Positions 4,134 to 37,011 of a stretch of DNA of 37,011 bases are shown here, one piece after another. The notes beneath the pieces were generated by a model that made no database searches, was not told the DNA's origin, and saw only the letters and a list, made by a program, of their open reading frames with translations. Each line of letters opens with the position of its first letter. The first letter of the stretch is position 1. The position numbers were made by a program, and so were the translations under genes. Origin of the DNA: a virus; the IMG/VR virus record IMGVR_UViG_3300024415_000017, positions 1 through 37,011 of that record; one strand, written 5' to 3'.

Positions 4134-4154
4134 AGCTTACTTTAAAAGTTTTTT
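4128..4154 (+). terminator. Hairpin plus T-run between convergent genes
   Basis: TTTTAAAG (4128-4135), a four-base loop CTTA, and CTTTAAAA (4140-4147) form a perfect 8-bp stem followed by G and six T (4149-4154). The TAA stop of the plus-strand gene (4131-4133) and the stop of the minus-strand gene (4137-4139) both lie inside the hairpin. The stem has a single G-C pair, so it is weak; the T-run favours termination of the plus-strand transcript. Confidence 0.45.
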
Positions 4155-5294
4155 AAATTTATCAGCCTCTATTTGATTGATTTTATCAGATATTGCAGGT
4201 CCTTTTAAACCAAACTCTTTCATAACATCTCTACCATTTGTAGATGGCTTGTATTTAAAAAAGGCTTTAATCATTTTAGCATCTAGTCTATTAATCTTTA
4301 CAAATTCTAAAATAACCTTTTTATCAAGTCCGCTATTTTTAAATTGCTTATGTGTATCAAACACATTGGCTGGATTAAATGCCATTAAGTTCTTTAAGAA
4401 TATAACTCCACTAATTTCATCGTTTGAAAATGTAGCCTTATTCATTTCTTTCTTAAGAAGATCTGTATCGTTTGCCATAAATAATTGAGTTAGTTGAATT
4501 AACCAAGTATTTGTGTTAACGAATTTTTGACTAATAGGTAATGTCGGAAACATAATATTCCATAACTTAAATTCAGAAACCATTTCCAAGTATTTCTTAG
4601 CAGACTTTGCAGTCGTTACTGATTTCTTAAATTCATCTCTAATTCTTTCTGGACTAATACCTTCTAAACTATTATCTGTTAGTATAGCTTCAGCAGTTTC
4701 TTTTTCTAATTTACTTCCAGTTCTACCAGCAAATCTTAAGGCTCTTAATTTTCTAAGTGGATCTTCTGCAAATCTATCTGCAGCAACACCAACAGTTCTA
4801 ATCTTTGAATTCTTTATATCTTCTAAGCCACCTACAAGATCGACAACCTCTTCAGTTCCCATGTCATAGAATAATGCATTGATAGTTAGATCTCGCCTTA
4901 GAACGTCCTTATCTATTGTAGAGTACTCCACGGCATCAGGTCTTCGGCCTTTACCAATATCTTCTCTAAATGTTGCAACCTCAACTCCAGCTGGATCTGA
5001 CGGTACATTTACAATAACCACACCAAATTGATGTCCAACTTCTCCAGTGGTTGTGTAACCTGCATTAGTAACTATTTCAATAACTTCTGCCGGGAAGGCA
5101 TCTGTTGCTAAATCAAAATCTTTTGGCTTCTTACCAAGCAGTGCATCTCGAACTGCACCACCAACTATAAAAAGTTCTTTACCATTCTTTTTAAATAGTT
5201 TATGTAGATCTAATATATCAGAAGGCACATTCATCTTAAGTGAATTCTTAGCCTCTGTTAAAAGTTTAAAATCTGCGAAGTTATGTAAGTTCAT
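4137..5294 (-). CDS. cca: CCA-adding enzyme / poly(A) polymerase family tRNA nucleotidyltransferase
   Basis: The 385-aa product carries the class II nucleotidyltransferase motifs in order: GGAVRD (45-50), the catalytic pair in DFDLATD (Asp59, Asp61), an FRED segment (109-112), RRDLTINAL (133-141), the GGLEDI segment (155-160), the nucleobase-selecting EDPLRKLRALRF (177-188), and ISPERIRDEF (213-222). These enzymes add or repair the 3' CCA of tRNAs, or add poly(A) in some relatives; the motifs alone do not separate the two. It is encoded opposite to the surrounding virion genes, with its stop codon 3 bases from the convergent neighbour. The catalytic core starts later than in most relatives: the first about 16 residues (ending LLTEA) look like an added N-terminal tag resembling a T4 capsid-targeting/prohead protease site. 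No tRNA gene was seen in the window. The leader lacks a Shine-Dalgarno. Confidence 0.92.
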   Translation of the reverse strand: MNLHNFADFKLLTEAKNSLKMNVPSDILDLHKLFKKNGKELFIVGGAVRDALLGKKPKDFDLATDAFPAEVIEIVTNAGYTTTGEVGHQFGVVIVNVPSDPAGVEVATFREDIGKGRRPDAVEYSTIDKDVLRRDLTINALFYDMGTEEVVDLVGGLEDIKNSKIRTVGVAADRFAEDPLRKLRALRFAGRTGSKLEKETAEAILTDNSLEGISPERIRDEFKKSVTTAKSAKKYLEMVSEFKLWNIMFPTLPISQKFVNTNTWLIQLTQLFMANDTDLLKKEMNKATFSNDEISGVIFLKNLMAFNPANVFDTHKQFKNSGLDKKVILEFVKINRLDAKMIKAFFKYKPSTNGRDVMKEFGLKGPAISDKINQIEADKFKKLLK

Positions 5295-34155: not shown

Positions 34156-34707
34156 ATGATTTTAAATAGCAGAAATAACCTTTATGATTTTAGATTTCCT
34201 AGAAAATTTGTACCAGAAGAAGTTGCAAATAAATACAAATCGTATTTAAATAGAATTCCGGGATCTTTATTAGCAGAGCCTATTGATTATATTAATTATT
34301 CTATACAGGGTATTAATGTGCCAGGAATTTCTTTTGATCCAATTACTCAAGCTGATAATGATGGAACCACAAGGTATCACAGGGGAGCAGTTCCAATTCA
34401 AAATACAATTCAAAGAGAATTTACAGTGACCATGCAATTATTAGATGGTTTTATTAATTATTGGATTATGATGGACACATTGCTTTATTATTATGCAAGA
34501 AGTACAAAAGAACCTTATACTCAGCCTTTAACATTAAGAATTTTAGATGCCGAGGGAGCTTCTGTTGCATATATGGAATTTCAAAAACCGATTATGAACT
34601 CAATAAATGAATTAAGTCTTAATATGGCACAGAACGTAGCAGAGTTTAATACATTTGAGGTTTCATTTTTTTACAATAAACTAGATCTTAGACTAGAAAT
34701 AGAATAA
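34156..34707 (+). CDS. 19: Tail tube protein family member, gp19-like
   Basis: At 183 aa this is near T4 gp19 (163 aa), and the pattern along the protein matches gp19. An early 'INVPGISF' strand is followed by 'REFTVTMQLLDGFINYWIMM', comparable in position to the gp19 segment that ends in a helix. The final strand pair (NELSLNMAQNVAEFNTFEVS) is comparable to the gp19 'GELQL...IQTFEVTL' end. gp19 hexamers stack to form the inner tube through which DNA passes. No sheath gene (gp18) is adjacent, so it could instead be a tube-like baseplate protein of the gp48/gp54 type. Confidence 0.65.
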   Translation: MILNSRNNLYDFRFPRKFVPEEVANKYKSYLNRIPGSLLAEPIDYINYSIQGINVPGISFDPITQADNDGTTRYHRGAVPIQNTIQREFTVTMQLLDGFINYWIMMDTLLYYYARSTKEPYTQPLTLRILDAEGASVAYMEFQKPIMNSINELSLNMAQNVAEFNTFEVSFFYNKLDLRLEIE

Positions 34708-34710
34708 AAA

Positions 34711-34718
34711 GATATATA
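34711..34718 (+). promoter_or_regulatory. GATATATA motif upstream of the small packaged-protein candidate
   Basis: GATATATA starts four bases after the previous stop codon and ends 16 bases before ATG at 34735 (22 before the ATG at 34741). Part of the set of five recurring leader motifs. Confidence 0.35.
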
Positions 34719-34734
34719 CTTTATAAAAAATATT

Positions 34735-35109
34735 ATGAATATGAAAACATTTAACGATTATTTAGTAGAAAACGAAATTAGTGAGCAGGACTATTCTTTA
34801 GTCAAAGAGGGCTTACAAGAAGAGTGGACTCCAGAATTAGAAGCTGAAGTAGATGCGGCTATTGAAGCATTTGAAGCTGAATATAAAAGAAAGGATGGTA
34901 CTTATGATTTAGATCGTTTAAATGAAGAGATGACTAATGAAGGTATTCTAGGTTCTATTATAGGTGGTTTAGCTGGATTTGCATTAGGTAAATCAATTGG
35001 AAAGGTTATTGCTAAAGTTTTAGGAATTCAAAAAGGTATTTTTTACGATTTATTAACTTCCAGATTAGTTGGTGCCGCTCTTGGTGCTGCAATGGGTAAA
35101 AGAATTTAA
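34735..35109 (+). CDS. Candidate internal head protein: capsid-targeting N-terminus plus glycine-zipper segments
   Basis: The 124-aa ORF has two in-frame ATGs; the second (34741) gives a protein starting MKTFNDYLVE. This matches the ten-residue T4 capsid-targeting sequence MKTYQEFIAE with identity or conservative exchange at every position, so 34741 is an attractive start. In T4 the tag sends internal proteins into the prohead and is removed by protease gp21. Next comes an acidic helical part (about 20-65), with Glu-Gly sites in LVKEG and TNEG. The C-terminal half has two hydrophobic glycine-zipper segments (GILGSIIGGLAGFALGKSIG and VGAALGAAMG) suited to membrane insertion. A DNA-ejection or pore protein packaged in the head is an attractive inference. 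Confidence 0.65.
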   Translation: MNMKTFNDYLVENEISEQDYSLVKEGLQEEWTPELEAEVDAAIEAFEAEYKRKDGTYDLDRLNEEMTNEGILGSIIGGLAGFALGKSIGKVIAKVLGIQKGIFYDLLTSRLVGAALGAAMGKRI

Positions 35110-35760
35110 ATGAATTTTATAGGAGTAGACTTCTCATTAAACTCACCAGGTATTTGTATCTGGAATGATAAAAGTAAAGTGTATCACTTTATAAGTTATC
35201 TTAAGCCTAAATCAGGTACTAAGGCTGAACAAAAAATGCAGGAAGAAATTAGCATTTTACCAGATGTCACATTAGTGGCTCAGCCAGATTTCACAAGTAA
35301 TAAAGATTATTCAAAATCAGAATTAGCTAAAGTTAAAAGATATGACAGGATGGCTGATGATATTCTTAATTTAATTGCACAGAATACATTTGAATCTGAT
35401 GGATTTACTATTGCATTTGAAGGCTCTTCTTATGGTTCTAAAATGGGAACTAATAATATGATTGACATGGCAGCAGGTGCTGCTATTTTAAAATTAAAGA
35501 TGATAAAGACTTTAAAGCCGGAAGATATCTTGACTGTAGCTCCAACCTCTCTTAAGAAGTTTGCAGGTAAAGGTAATATGAGTAAGCTACAATTATTTGA
35601 TGCCTTTAAAGCAAATACCGCTAATGACAAGTCTCTGCTTAAAAGCTCTTTCTATAAATATGTTAGGGAAATTGAAACTGGGAAAAAGGTGCCTAAACCT
35701 TTTGATGACCTTATTGATGCTTGCTATCTTGTAGCTTATACTGCTAACGCTCTGAACTAA
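35110..35760 (+). CDS. RuvC-like Holliday junction resolvase / RNase H-fold nuclease
   Basis: The 216-aa protein shows the RuvC-type arrangement of acidic residues: Asp7 in FIGVDFSLNSPGICIW, Glu104 in IAFEGSSYGSK, and Asp200/Asp203 in PFDDLIDACYLVAY near the C-terminus, plus the typical VAPTSLKKFAGKGNMSK segment (143-159). These bind two metal ions and cut branched DNA. T4 uses the unrelated endonuclease VII (gp49) to resolve branches before packaging; a RuvC-type enzyme may take that job here. Its ATG directly follows the preceding stop codon. Located between virion genes and gp32, consistent with a recombination role. Confidence 0.85.
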   Translation: MNFIGVDFSLNSPGICIWNDKSKVYHFISYLKPKSGTKAEQKMQEEISILPDVTLVAQPDFTSNKDYSKSELAKVKRYDRMADDILNLIAQNTFESDGFTIAFEGSSYGSKMGTNNMIDMAAGAAILKLKMIKTLKPEDILTVAPTSLKKFAGKGNMSKLQLFDAFKANTANDKSLLKSSFYKYVREIETGKKVPKPFDDLIDACYLVAYTANALN

Positions 35761-36185: not shown

Positions 36186-37011
36186 ATGGCAGATTTTGAC
36201 ATTTTTAACTTGGGCGTAGAAGACGTAGAAACTCACCAAGTACAAACAAGTAACTCAACAAATGAGATTTACAAACCAACAGCAGACGATGGTAAAGACG
36301 GAACTTACAAAGCATTAATACGTTTTGTACCTAATCCAGAAAACCCTCGTAACTCACTAATCCAAAAATATGTCCACTGGTTAACTAACTCTTCAGGAGA
36401 TGGTAAATTAGTAGACAGTCCATCAACAATCGGAGAGAAATGTCCTATTGCAGACGTATTTTGGAAATTAAGAAAGTCTGACTCAGCAGTTGACCGTAAG
36501 GCATCTGAGAAACTGAAAAGACGTCAGCAGTATTATGCACTTATTAAAATCGTAAAGGATCCACAAAATCCAGATTTAGAAGGACAGTACAAAGTATTTA
36601 AATTCGGGTATAAGATCAAAGAGAAGATCGATGCTGAATTAAAACCAGACTTTGGGGAGCCAACACAAGTATTTGACCTTTTTGAAGGAAAGAACTTTGA
36701 GTTGATTATCACAAGACAAGGTGAATACAACAACTATGACAAGTCTAAATTCTCTGCAAGTAAATCAGCAATTATCTTAGAAGATGCACCAGCTGAAAGA
36801 AATAAAGAGACAATGGCGACGATCAAAACAGAATTAGACAATGCACCATCATTAGCTAACTATGACTACCGAGCATGGGATGAAGATATGCGTAGCTTTG
36901 TTAACGATGTACTTCGTATGTACCTTAACCCAGGGGAGTCTATTGCAGCCATGACCGGATCTGTAAAGAAAGAAGAAAAACCAGCACCAGCTAAAGTAGC
37001 AGAAACTGCAG
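36186..37011 (+). CDS. 32: Single-stranded DNA-binding protein gp32 (3' end outside window)
   Basis: 275 codons are visible before the window ends. The core matches T4 gp32 (301 aa): YKALIRFVPNPENPRNSLIQ, then KYVHWLT, 'PSTIGEKCPIADVFWKLRKS', 'YYALIKIVKDPQNPDLEGQ', and 'KVFKFGYKIKEKI' with the following ITRQG segment. gp32 coats single-stranded DNA in replication, recombination and repair. Of the four T4 zinc ligands (His64, Cys77, Cys87, Cys90) only His64 and one Cys (86) are present, so the zinc module appears lost. The visible end is turning Lys/Glu/Pro-Ala-rich, consistent with the linker before an acidic tail. Codon choice differs from the virion genes (more CGT, AAC, GAC), suggesting high expression. 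Confidence 0.92.
   Translation, partial: MADFDIFNLGVEDVETHQVQTSNSTNEIYKPTADDGKDGTYKALIRFVPNPENPRNSLIQKYVHWLTNSSGDGKLVDSPSTIGEKCPIADVFWKLRKSDSAVDRKASEKLKRRQQYYALIKIVKDPQNPDLEGQYKVFKFGYKIKEKIDAELKPDFGEPTQVFDLFEGKNFELIITRQGEYNNYDKSKFSASKSAIILEDAPAERNKETMATIKTELDNAPSLANYDYRAWDEDMRSFVNDVLRMYLNPGESIAAMTGSVKKEEKPAPAKVAETA

Follow-up and report, generated by a model that had tools for sequence, protein, structure and literature searches.

The window analyzed here, a 37,011-base virus record that we treated as a fragment, encodes a protein of 122 residues (ORF 34741..35109) whose first ten codons (34741-34770, forward strand) read MKTFNDYLVE. We consider it likely, with a probability of about 0.73, that this N-terminal tag is a T4-type capsid-targeting propeptide, which would carry the protein into the prohead and then be removed by the prohead protease. 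Based on sequence comparisons, the expectation that the tag works like the capsid-targeting sequence (CTS) of T4 is well supported, and the tag seems to be one case of a wider system in related large phages. We also lean slightly towards a broader proposal, in which the T4 CTS would be one instance of a general address code in the T4 superfamily and huge phages, by which a phage may tag some 20 proteins or more (LR756500.1 has 22 strict tags) that would be loaded into the head, trimmed by the protease and injected. The features of the tagged locus are listed here.

34156..34707, forward strand: upstream ORF of 183 residues, without a family match.
34711..34718, forward strand: late-promoter-like element GATATATA, 16 nt before the first ATG, assigned from its position upstream of portal-like, protease-like and tagged ORFs in relatives.
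34741..34770, forward strand: CTS-like tag MKTFNDYLVE with a predicted prohead-protease cut after Glu10, based on family conservation and T4 genetics.
34741..35109, forward strand: tagged protein of 122 residues (124 from the first ATG at 34735), based on the ORF and its IMG/VR relatives.
34771..34941, forward strand: acidic middle region, residues 11-67, with a computed pI of 4.05 and a charge of about -14.
34939..34944, forward strand: Glu67-Gly68 (MTNE/G), a speculative, putative second prohead-protease site, based on conservation.
34942..35106, forward strand: basic, hydrophobic, glycine-zipper-like region, residues 68-122, pI 10.7, based on a sub-threshold Pfam match.
35110..35760, forward strand: downstream RuvC-like resolvase (phrog_159, E 2.9e-16).
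36186..37011, forward strand: gp32-like single-strand DNA-binding protein, truncated where the window ends, based on a family match.

The T4 internal proteins IPII and IPIII (ipII and ipIII in AF158101) begin MKTYQEFIAE, and IPI begins MKTFKEF. The sequence-only reading had described a gap-free match to T4 with conservative differences, and this description holds, as MKTFNDYLVE and MKTYQEFIAE are identical at four of ten positions and differ conservatively at the other six; its wording, a "near-perfect analogue," is justified at those four positions that are important in T4 (4, 7, 8, and 10). According to passages of PMC9026906, a review of T4 head assembly, residues 4 and 7 of IPIII are the main determinants of its capsid targeting, and its processing depends on residues 8 and 10. 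With the CTSs of IPI, IPII, and IPIII, as characterized in those passages, the window tag shares its N-terminal location, its length of ten residues, aromatic residues at positions 4 and 7 and a hydrophobic residue at position 8. The Glu at position 10 is shared with IPII and IPIII, and in T4, too, the tag is carried by different small proteins. Unlike in T4, the window protein behind the tag has no detectable similarity to the T4 internal proteins.

Conservation among relatives of the window protein follows the same positions. The best 80 of 138 loci in an IMG/VR scan were retained and gave 44 distinct proteins, in all of which Thr3, Phe4, Tyr7, and Glu10 are invariant; Leu8 is present in 43 (Ile in the other) and Lys2 in 42 of the 43 with a letter at position 2, whereas positions 5, 6, 9, and 11-16 are variable. 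The family retains all four of the T4 positions, namely aromatic residues at 4 and 7, a hydrophobic residue at 8 and Glu at 10. A CTS should be about 10-19 residues long and lie at the very N-terminus, and the tag occupies residues 1-10, or 3-12 if counted from the first ATG.

The second ATG, proposed earlier as the true start, is the likelier start of the window protein based on these alignments, since an ATG stands at this position in 70 of the 80 loci (69 when L078, whose match begins at residue 3, is left out), although translation may instead begin at the first ATG (34735, MNMKTF...). In the remaining 10 loci (9 of the 44 distinct proteins) the first in-frame ATG is 3-4 codons upstream, and an N-terminal extension is therefore tolerated. 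When read from the upstream ATG, six of the 44 relatives show an F7/Y10/E13 arrangement, which links the F4/Y7/E10 register of the window tag (the T4 register) to a second register, F7/F10/E13. The LR756500.1 homolog has the full core at residues 17-23 and only F4/Y7 at its N-terminal start, and the Lak-C1 homolog is without the tag.

Within the window, one of 22 ORFs of at least 60 residues carries the strict motif [FY]xx[FY][ILVMFA]xE with its first residue at positions 3-9, where 0.01-0.02 would be expected, an excess that is modest by itself. As a 37-kb fragment, the window has no S77 prohead protease match, and the protease and tag checks were therefore conducted in relatives. For the tag counts, LR756500.1 and seven related contigs were pieced together and their ORFs called. 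The strict-motif counts cover ORFs of at least 60 residues from a simple longest-ORF caller using ATG starts only, with TAG read as Gln for Lak-C1, and expectations were derived from the internal frequency of the motif. Strict tags were identified in 22 of the 627 ORFs of LR756500.1 (expected 1.41; maximum of 5 in 1000 N-terminus shuffles), 15 of 164 in G002 (expected 0.38), 8 of 260 in G001 (expected 0.46) and 7 of 129 in G003 (expected 0.38), with a maximum of 3 in 1000 shuffles for each of these three contigs. The counts for G004 (4/93), G005 (4/87), G017 (3/54), and G008 (3/67) also exceed their shuffle maximum of 2 each.

Five of the seven comparison phages have no such excess: HTVC008M (0/181), crAss001 (0/101), pT24 (0/276), and T5 (0/155) have no strict tag, and Lak-C1 has 2 in 577 ORFs vs. 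1.06 expected. P-SSM4 has two in 192 ORFs (expected 0.29, P 0.035) and T4 two in 246 (expected 0.61, P 0.13, not significant alone), the T4 pair being IPII and IPIII; the strict motif does not catch T4 IPI or Alt. A further T4 protein, gp61.1 (AF158101 18966-19130, reverse strand, 54 residues, annotated as hypothetical), has a CTS-like beginning, MKTFKEFIKE, and likewise matches the strict motif.

A CTS should also be common to proteins with unrelated mature parts. The search for other proteins with the same N-terminal pattern, run in the relatives, yielded 67 tagged ORFs, each with 50 residues or more, in the eight related genomes and contigs, with both registers counted, and these fall into 30 families (BLAST at E 1e-3) after removal of the first 20 residues, although at least one of the 67 (LR756500.1 336225) looks like a chance match. 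The interpretation given in the sequence-only reading, which had proposed such a search, is supported; it dealt with a single protein, and the tag now seems to belong to a system. A count by position reveals the second register in LR756500.1, as [FY]xx[FY] begins at residue 7 in 39 ORFs vs. a mean of 6.9 at positions 12-30. The same genome has a tag island (312960-318055) of eight neighboring ORFs, one on the opposite strand, in each of which MKYI or MKFI at the start precedes a tag-like stretch; strict tags are present in five of these, [FY]xx[FY] only in two, and one (316690) is degenerate.

The second-register tag, MK[HY]IKxFE[EQ]FhNE, has the same core as the T4-register tag, three residues later. 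A DNA pattern for MK[HY]IKx[FY]E[EQ]F matched at least 120 stretches in IMG/VR, two scrambles of its codons matched none there, and the bacterial and archaeal genome collection contained four matching stretches. From 159 pattern starts, of which 13 ran off the locus end and 3 gave fewer than 50 residues, the rest collapsed to 135 distinct ORFs, and these form 84 clusters with no inter-cluster BLAST match behind the tag at E 1e-3. Outside the search pattern, the conserved positions agree with the logic of the T4 tag: of the 84 cluster representatives, 62 have Glu13, compared with a Glu frequency of 8.3% over positions 14-30, and 67 have a hydrophobic residue at position 11, compared with 25.7%. 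The 135 tags comprise 104 distinct 30-base sequences, and conservation drops after the Glu, with no residue exceeding 30/135 at positions 14-20. With a looser pattern for the second register, matches were obtained in LR756500.1 and in 20 of 21 tag-bearing IMG/VR contigs, and none in Lak-C1, T4, crAss001, P-SSM4, HTVC008M, T5, phiKZ or pT24; the reversed pattern, used as a control, matched none of these 30 records.

For the T4 register, at least 120 IMG/VR stretches were matched vs. 6 and 6 for the scrambles, with Glu10 being inside this pattern, and the matches listed gave 115 distinct ORFs of at least 50 residues in 60 clusters. These phages differ from T4 in their frequent use of the F7/F10/E13 register and in the much larger number of tagged proteins. 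A chance match was rejected based on family conservation, shuffles, comparison genomes, and scrambled patterns.

The check for a gp21-like protease identified the S77 prohead protease (PF03420) in LR756500.1, in Lak-C1 and in 8 of the 26 related contigs, which we treated as fragments; no S77 match was found in the 37-kb window. Nor was one found in the 79.9-kb G008, which is identical to the window over 500 bases at the tagged locus. In G003 the gene order is portal (phrog_213), a strictly tagged ORF of 112 residues, the S77 protease, an ORF of 138 residues beginning MKYVKLFEQFLIAE, which is a looser tag with E14, and the Gp23 capsid protein; this head-module order is close to 20-67-68-21-22-23 of T4. 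The S77 open frames in relatives span 477-831 codons (the shortest being near a contig end), and that of G003 (L143:7213-9159, forward strand) encodes 649 residues vs. 212 for T4 gp21; given this far greater length, they may carry an extra part.

Among the matches listed, 17 of 23 second-register contigs of at least 80 kb have S77 and 18 of 23 have Gp23, whereas S77 was found in 4 of 16 T4-register contigs of at least 40 kb and in 3 of 12 scrambled-control contigs, the latter two sets being mostly shorter, so that the rates differ in their length basis. Given these counts, co-occurrence with S77 is not specific; we regard it as weak evidence, and its value as proof is weakened. Five second-register contigs with 2-8 looser tags each (G028, G037, G043, G044, and G045) show neither S77 nor Gp23, and HTVC008M, pT24, and Lak-C1 have S77 and no tag excess. 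We also considered whether the same core marks the cleavage site of the major capsid protein, and rejected this since the core is absent from the N-terminal part of the capsid proteins of G002, G003, and G004; the G004 capsid protein has it at residue 111. T4 gp23 has FGSFLTE at residues 59-65, and its cut falls after residue 65.

In G001-G005 and G017, many ORFs, among them those resembling the portal and the protease, are preceded at about 17-40 nt by the element GATATATA, which is a putative late promoter. Over seven contigs, this element stands exactly 4 nt before the ATG of 15 of 44 tagged ORFs and of 10 of 810 that carry no tag, counts that treat homologous genes of several contigs as separate and so make the P value too small. 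If GATATATA is a -10-type late promoter, the 4-nt spacing would imply leaderless messages. LR756500.1 has no GATATATA at 4 nt, and this, together with the tag-bearing contigs that have no S77 or Gp23, slightly lowers our confidence in both the CTS and the address-code readings.

Behind the tag, the acidic residues 11-67 are possibly a propeptide that would also be removed. Glu67-Gly68 is kept in all 44 distinct relatives and in the LR756500.1 and Lak-C1 homologs and, as a matter of speculation, is a possible second cut site of the prohead protease; residue 65 is Thr in 27 of the 44, which is a weaker fit to such a site. Residues 68-122 are perhaps membrane-active: their match to Gly-zipper_Omp (PF13488; E 7.6e-4, 19.8 bits) is below the curated cut-off of 25, and with E up to 0.1 the window protein matched three glycine-zipper models and DUF456 in Pfam. 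This C-terminal region is more widely conserved than the N-terminus and extends to Lak phages. PHROGs gave a single weak match (phrog_767, E 0.01), and a tblastn search against phages, with E values up to 1, matched LR756500.1 and 15 Lak records and not T4; homology to T4 internal proteins was not found in Pfam, PHROGs or this tblastn search. The structure model of the window protein is poor (mean pLDDT 48.5), a PDB sequence search with the family profile gave no meaningful match, and PADLOC gave nothing for the window protein.

We envisage that the first ten residues form a short amphipathic helix whose two aromatics would bind the prohead core, and that the tagged protein, made late, would enter the prohead with the core. 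The S77 prohead protease would then cleave after Glu10, and a second cleavage after Glu67 may release a basic, glycine-zipper peptide of 55 residues. The mature part would stay in the head beside the DNA and probably be ejected into the host, whose membrane would be the site of action of the glycine-zipper region. The same address tag, in the F4/Y7/E10 and F7/F10/E13 registers, would serve many unrelated proteins of these phages.

Other explanations of the tag have to be weighed against this scheme. Instead of a capsid signal, it could be a general amphipathic N-terminal helix that directs proteins to a membrane, a replication compartment or a site of tail assembly, and the spacing of I4, F7, F10, and V11 would suit such a helix, as would the glycine-zipper-like region of the window protein; the S77-positive phages without tags and the tag-bearing contigs without S77 or Gp23 point the same way. 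We nevertheless think this unlikely, since a Glu three residues past the second aromatic (62/84) is unexplained by a membrane helix and expected for protease processing, the tag positions agree with T4 CTS genetics (as given in passages of PMC9026906), and strictly and loosely tagged ORFs flank the prohead protease of G003. The alternative that the window protein is simply a glycine-zipper membrane protein, holin-like or superinfection-exclusion-like, with a coincidental T4 match, draws on the reach of its C-terminal region to Lak phages, yet appears very unlikely given that F4, Y7, and E10 are invariant in 44/44 relatives among variable neighbors and that the tag also occurs on unrelated proteins encoded in the same genomes; moreover, a membrane role after ejection fits the capsid-targeting reading too.

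A shared N-terminus might also arise from a mobile start cassette, consisting of a promoter and the first codons, that spreads by recombination and has no targeting role. The clustering of tagged genes (LR756500.1, 313-318 kb) and the GATATATA element at fixed spacing before some of them would be expected of a cassette, but 104 distinct 30-base sequences in 135 tags, the occurrence of the same core in both registers and the drop in conservation after the Glu in the IMG/VR set (no residue above 30/135 at 14-20) leave us giving this idea hardly any credence.

Compared with known systems, the capsid-targeting reading of the tag has several parallels. Head-protein propeptides of phiKZ, 201phi2-1, and SPN3US are cut after Glu by a gp21-like protease in head maturation, and SPN3US gp53 and gp54 have identical N-termini (passages of PMC9026906 and PMC5694885). 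At least four SPN3US propeptides exceed 100 residues, and only that of gp45 (20 residues) is T4-like in length, according to the same passages. A short common tag is not among the features described for these three phages in the passages, unlike in the phages studied here. In P1, an N-terminal stretch directs DarB to the capsid, as proposed for the tag here, whereas the N-termini of the Dar proteins have no consensus; signal processing is not among the features described in the relevant passages (PMC9024508). Proteins matching PF13488 resemble the window protein in having a glycine-spaced, hydrophobic C-terminal region, with the caveat that the match here is below the Pfam cut-off.

The new elements here are the scale of the tagging, the use of a second register and the extension to huge phages; in the open-licence PMC literature (titles and abstract beginnings, among the matches listed) such tags were not described in these phages. 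If the address-code proposal is true, the T4 CTS is no peculiarity of T-even phages, and the tag could predict injected cargo, including possible anti-defense factors, in uncultured phages from sequence alone, and supply new capsid-loading tags for protein packaging. To our knowledge, head-carried and injected phage proteins are known for few isolates.

Proteins of the LRR, DUF2201 metallopeptidase, and ATP-grasp types are among those that carry a tag, and many of the tagged proteins scanned individually have no family match. A Pfam scan that covered 80 of the 84 second-register cluster representatives identified ankyrin repeats, a zeta-toxin-like kinase, a cytidylyltransferase-like protein and a 2H-phosphoesterase-like protein. 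Weak matches in this set were 2_5_RNA_ligase2 (3.6e-6) and Acb1 (3e-4), one member each. The tagged protein L265 (10488-11045, reverse strand) has two HxT motifs and belongs to a cluster of four. It is probably the member with weak 2H-phosphoesterase/Acb1 similarity and is a candidate injected anti-CBASS protein, although neither the PDB nor the PADLOC search with L265 supported the Acb1-like label. From its P-loop, L270 would be the zeta-toxin-like member.

The window has one other gene with a similar N-terminus, which is a weaker case.

4137..5294, reverse strand: tRNA nucleotidyltransferase/polyA-polymerase-like protein, based on a domain match, with a CTS-like N-terminal extension MNLHNFADFKLLTE.

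The distant Lak-C1 homolog of this protein does not keep the FxxF and later Glu of the putative CTS-like extension, and both are kept in two divergent homologs (G001 and G002). The gene is located on the strand opposite to most of its neighbors.
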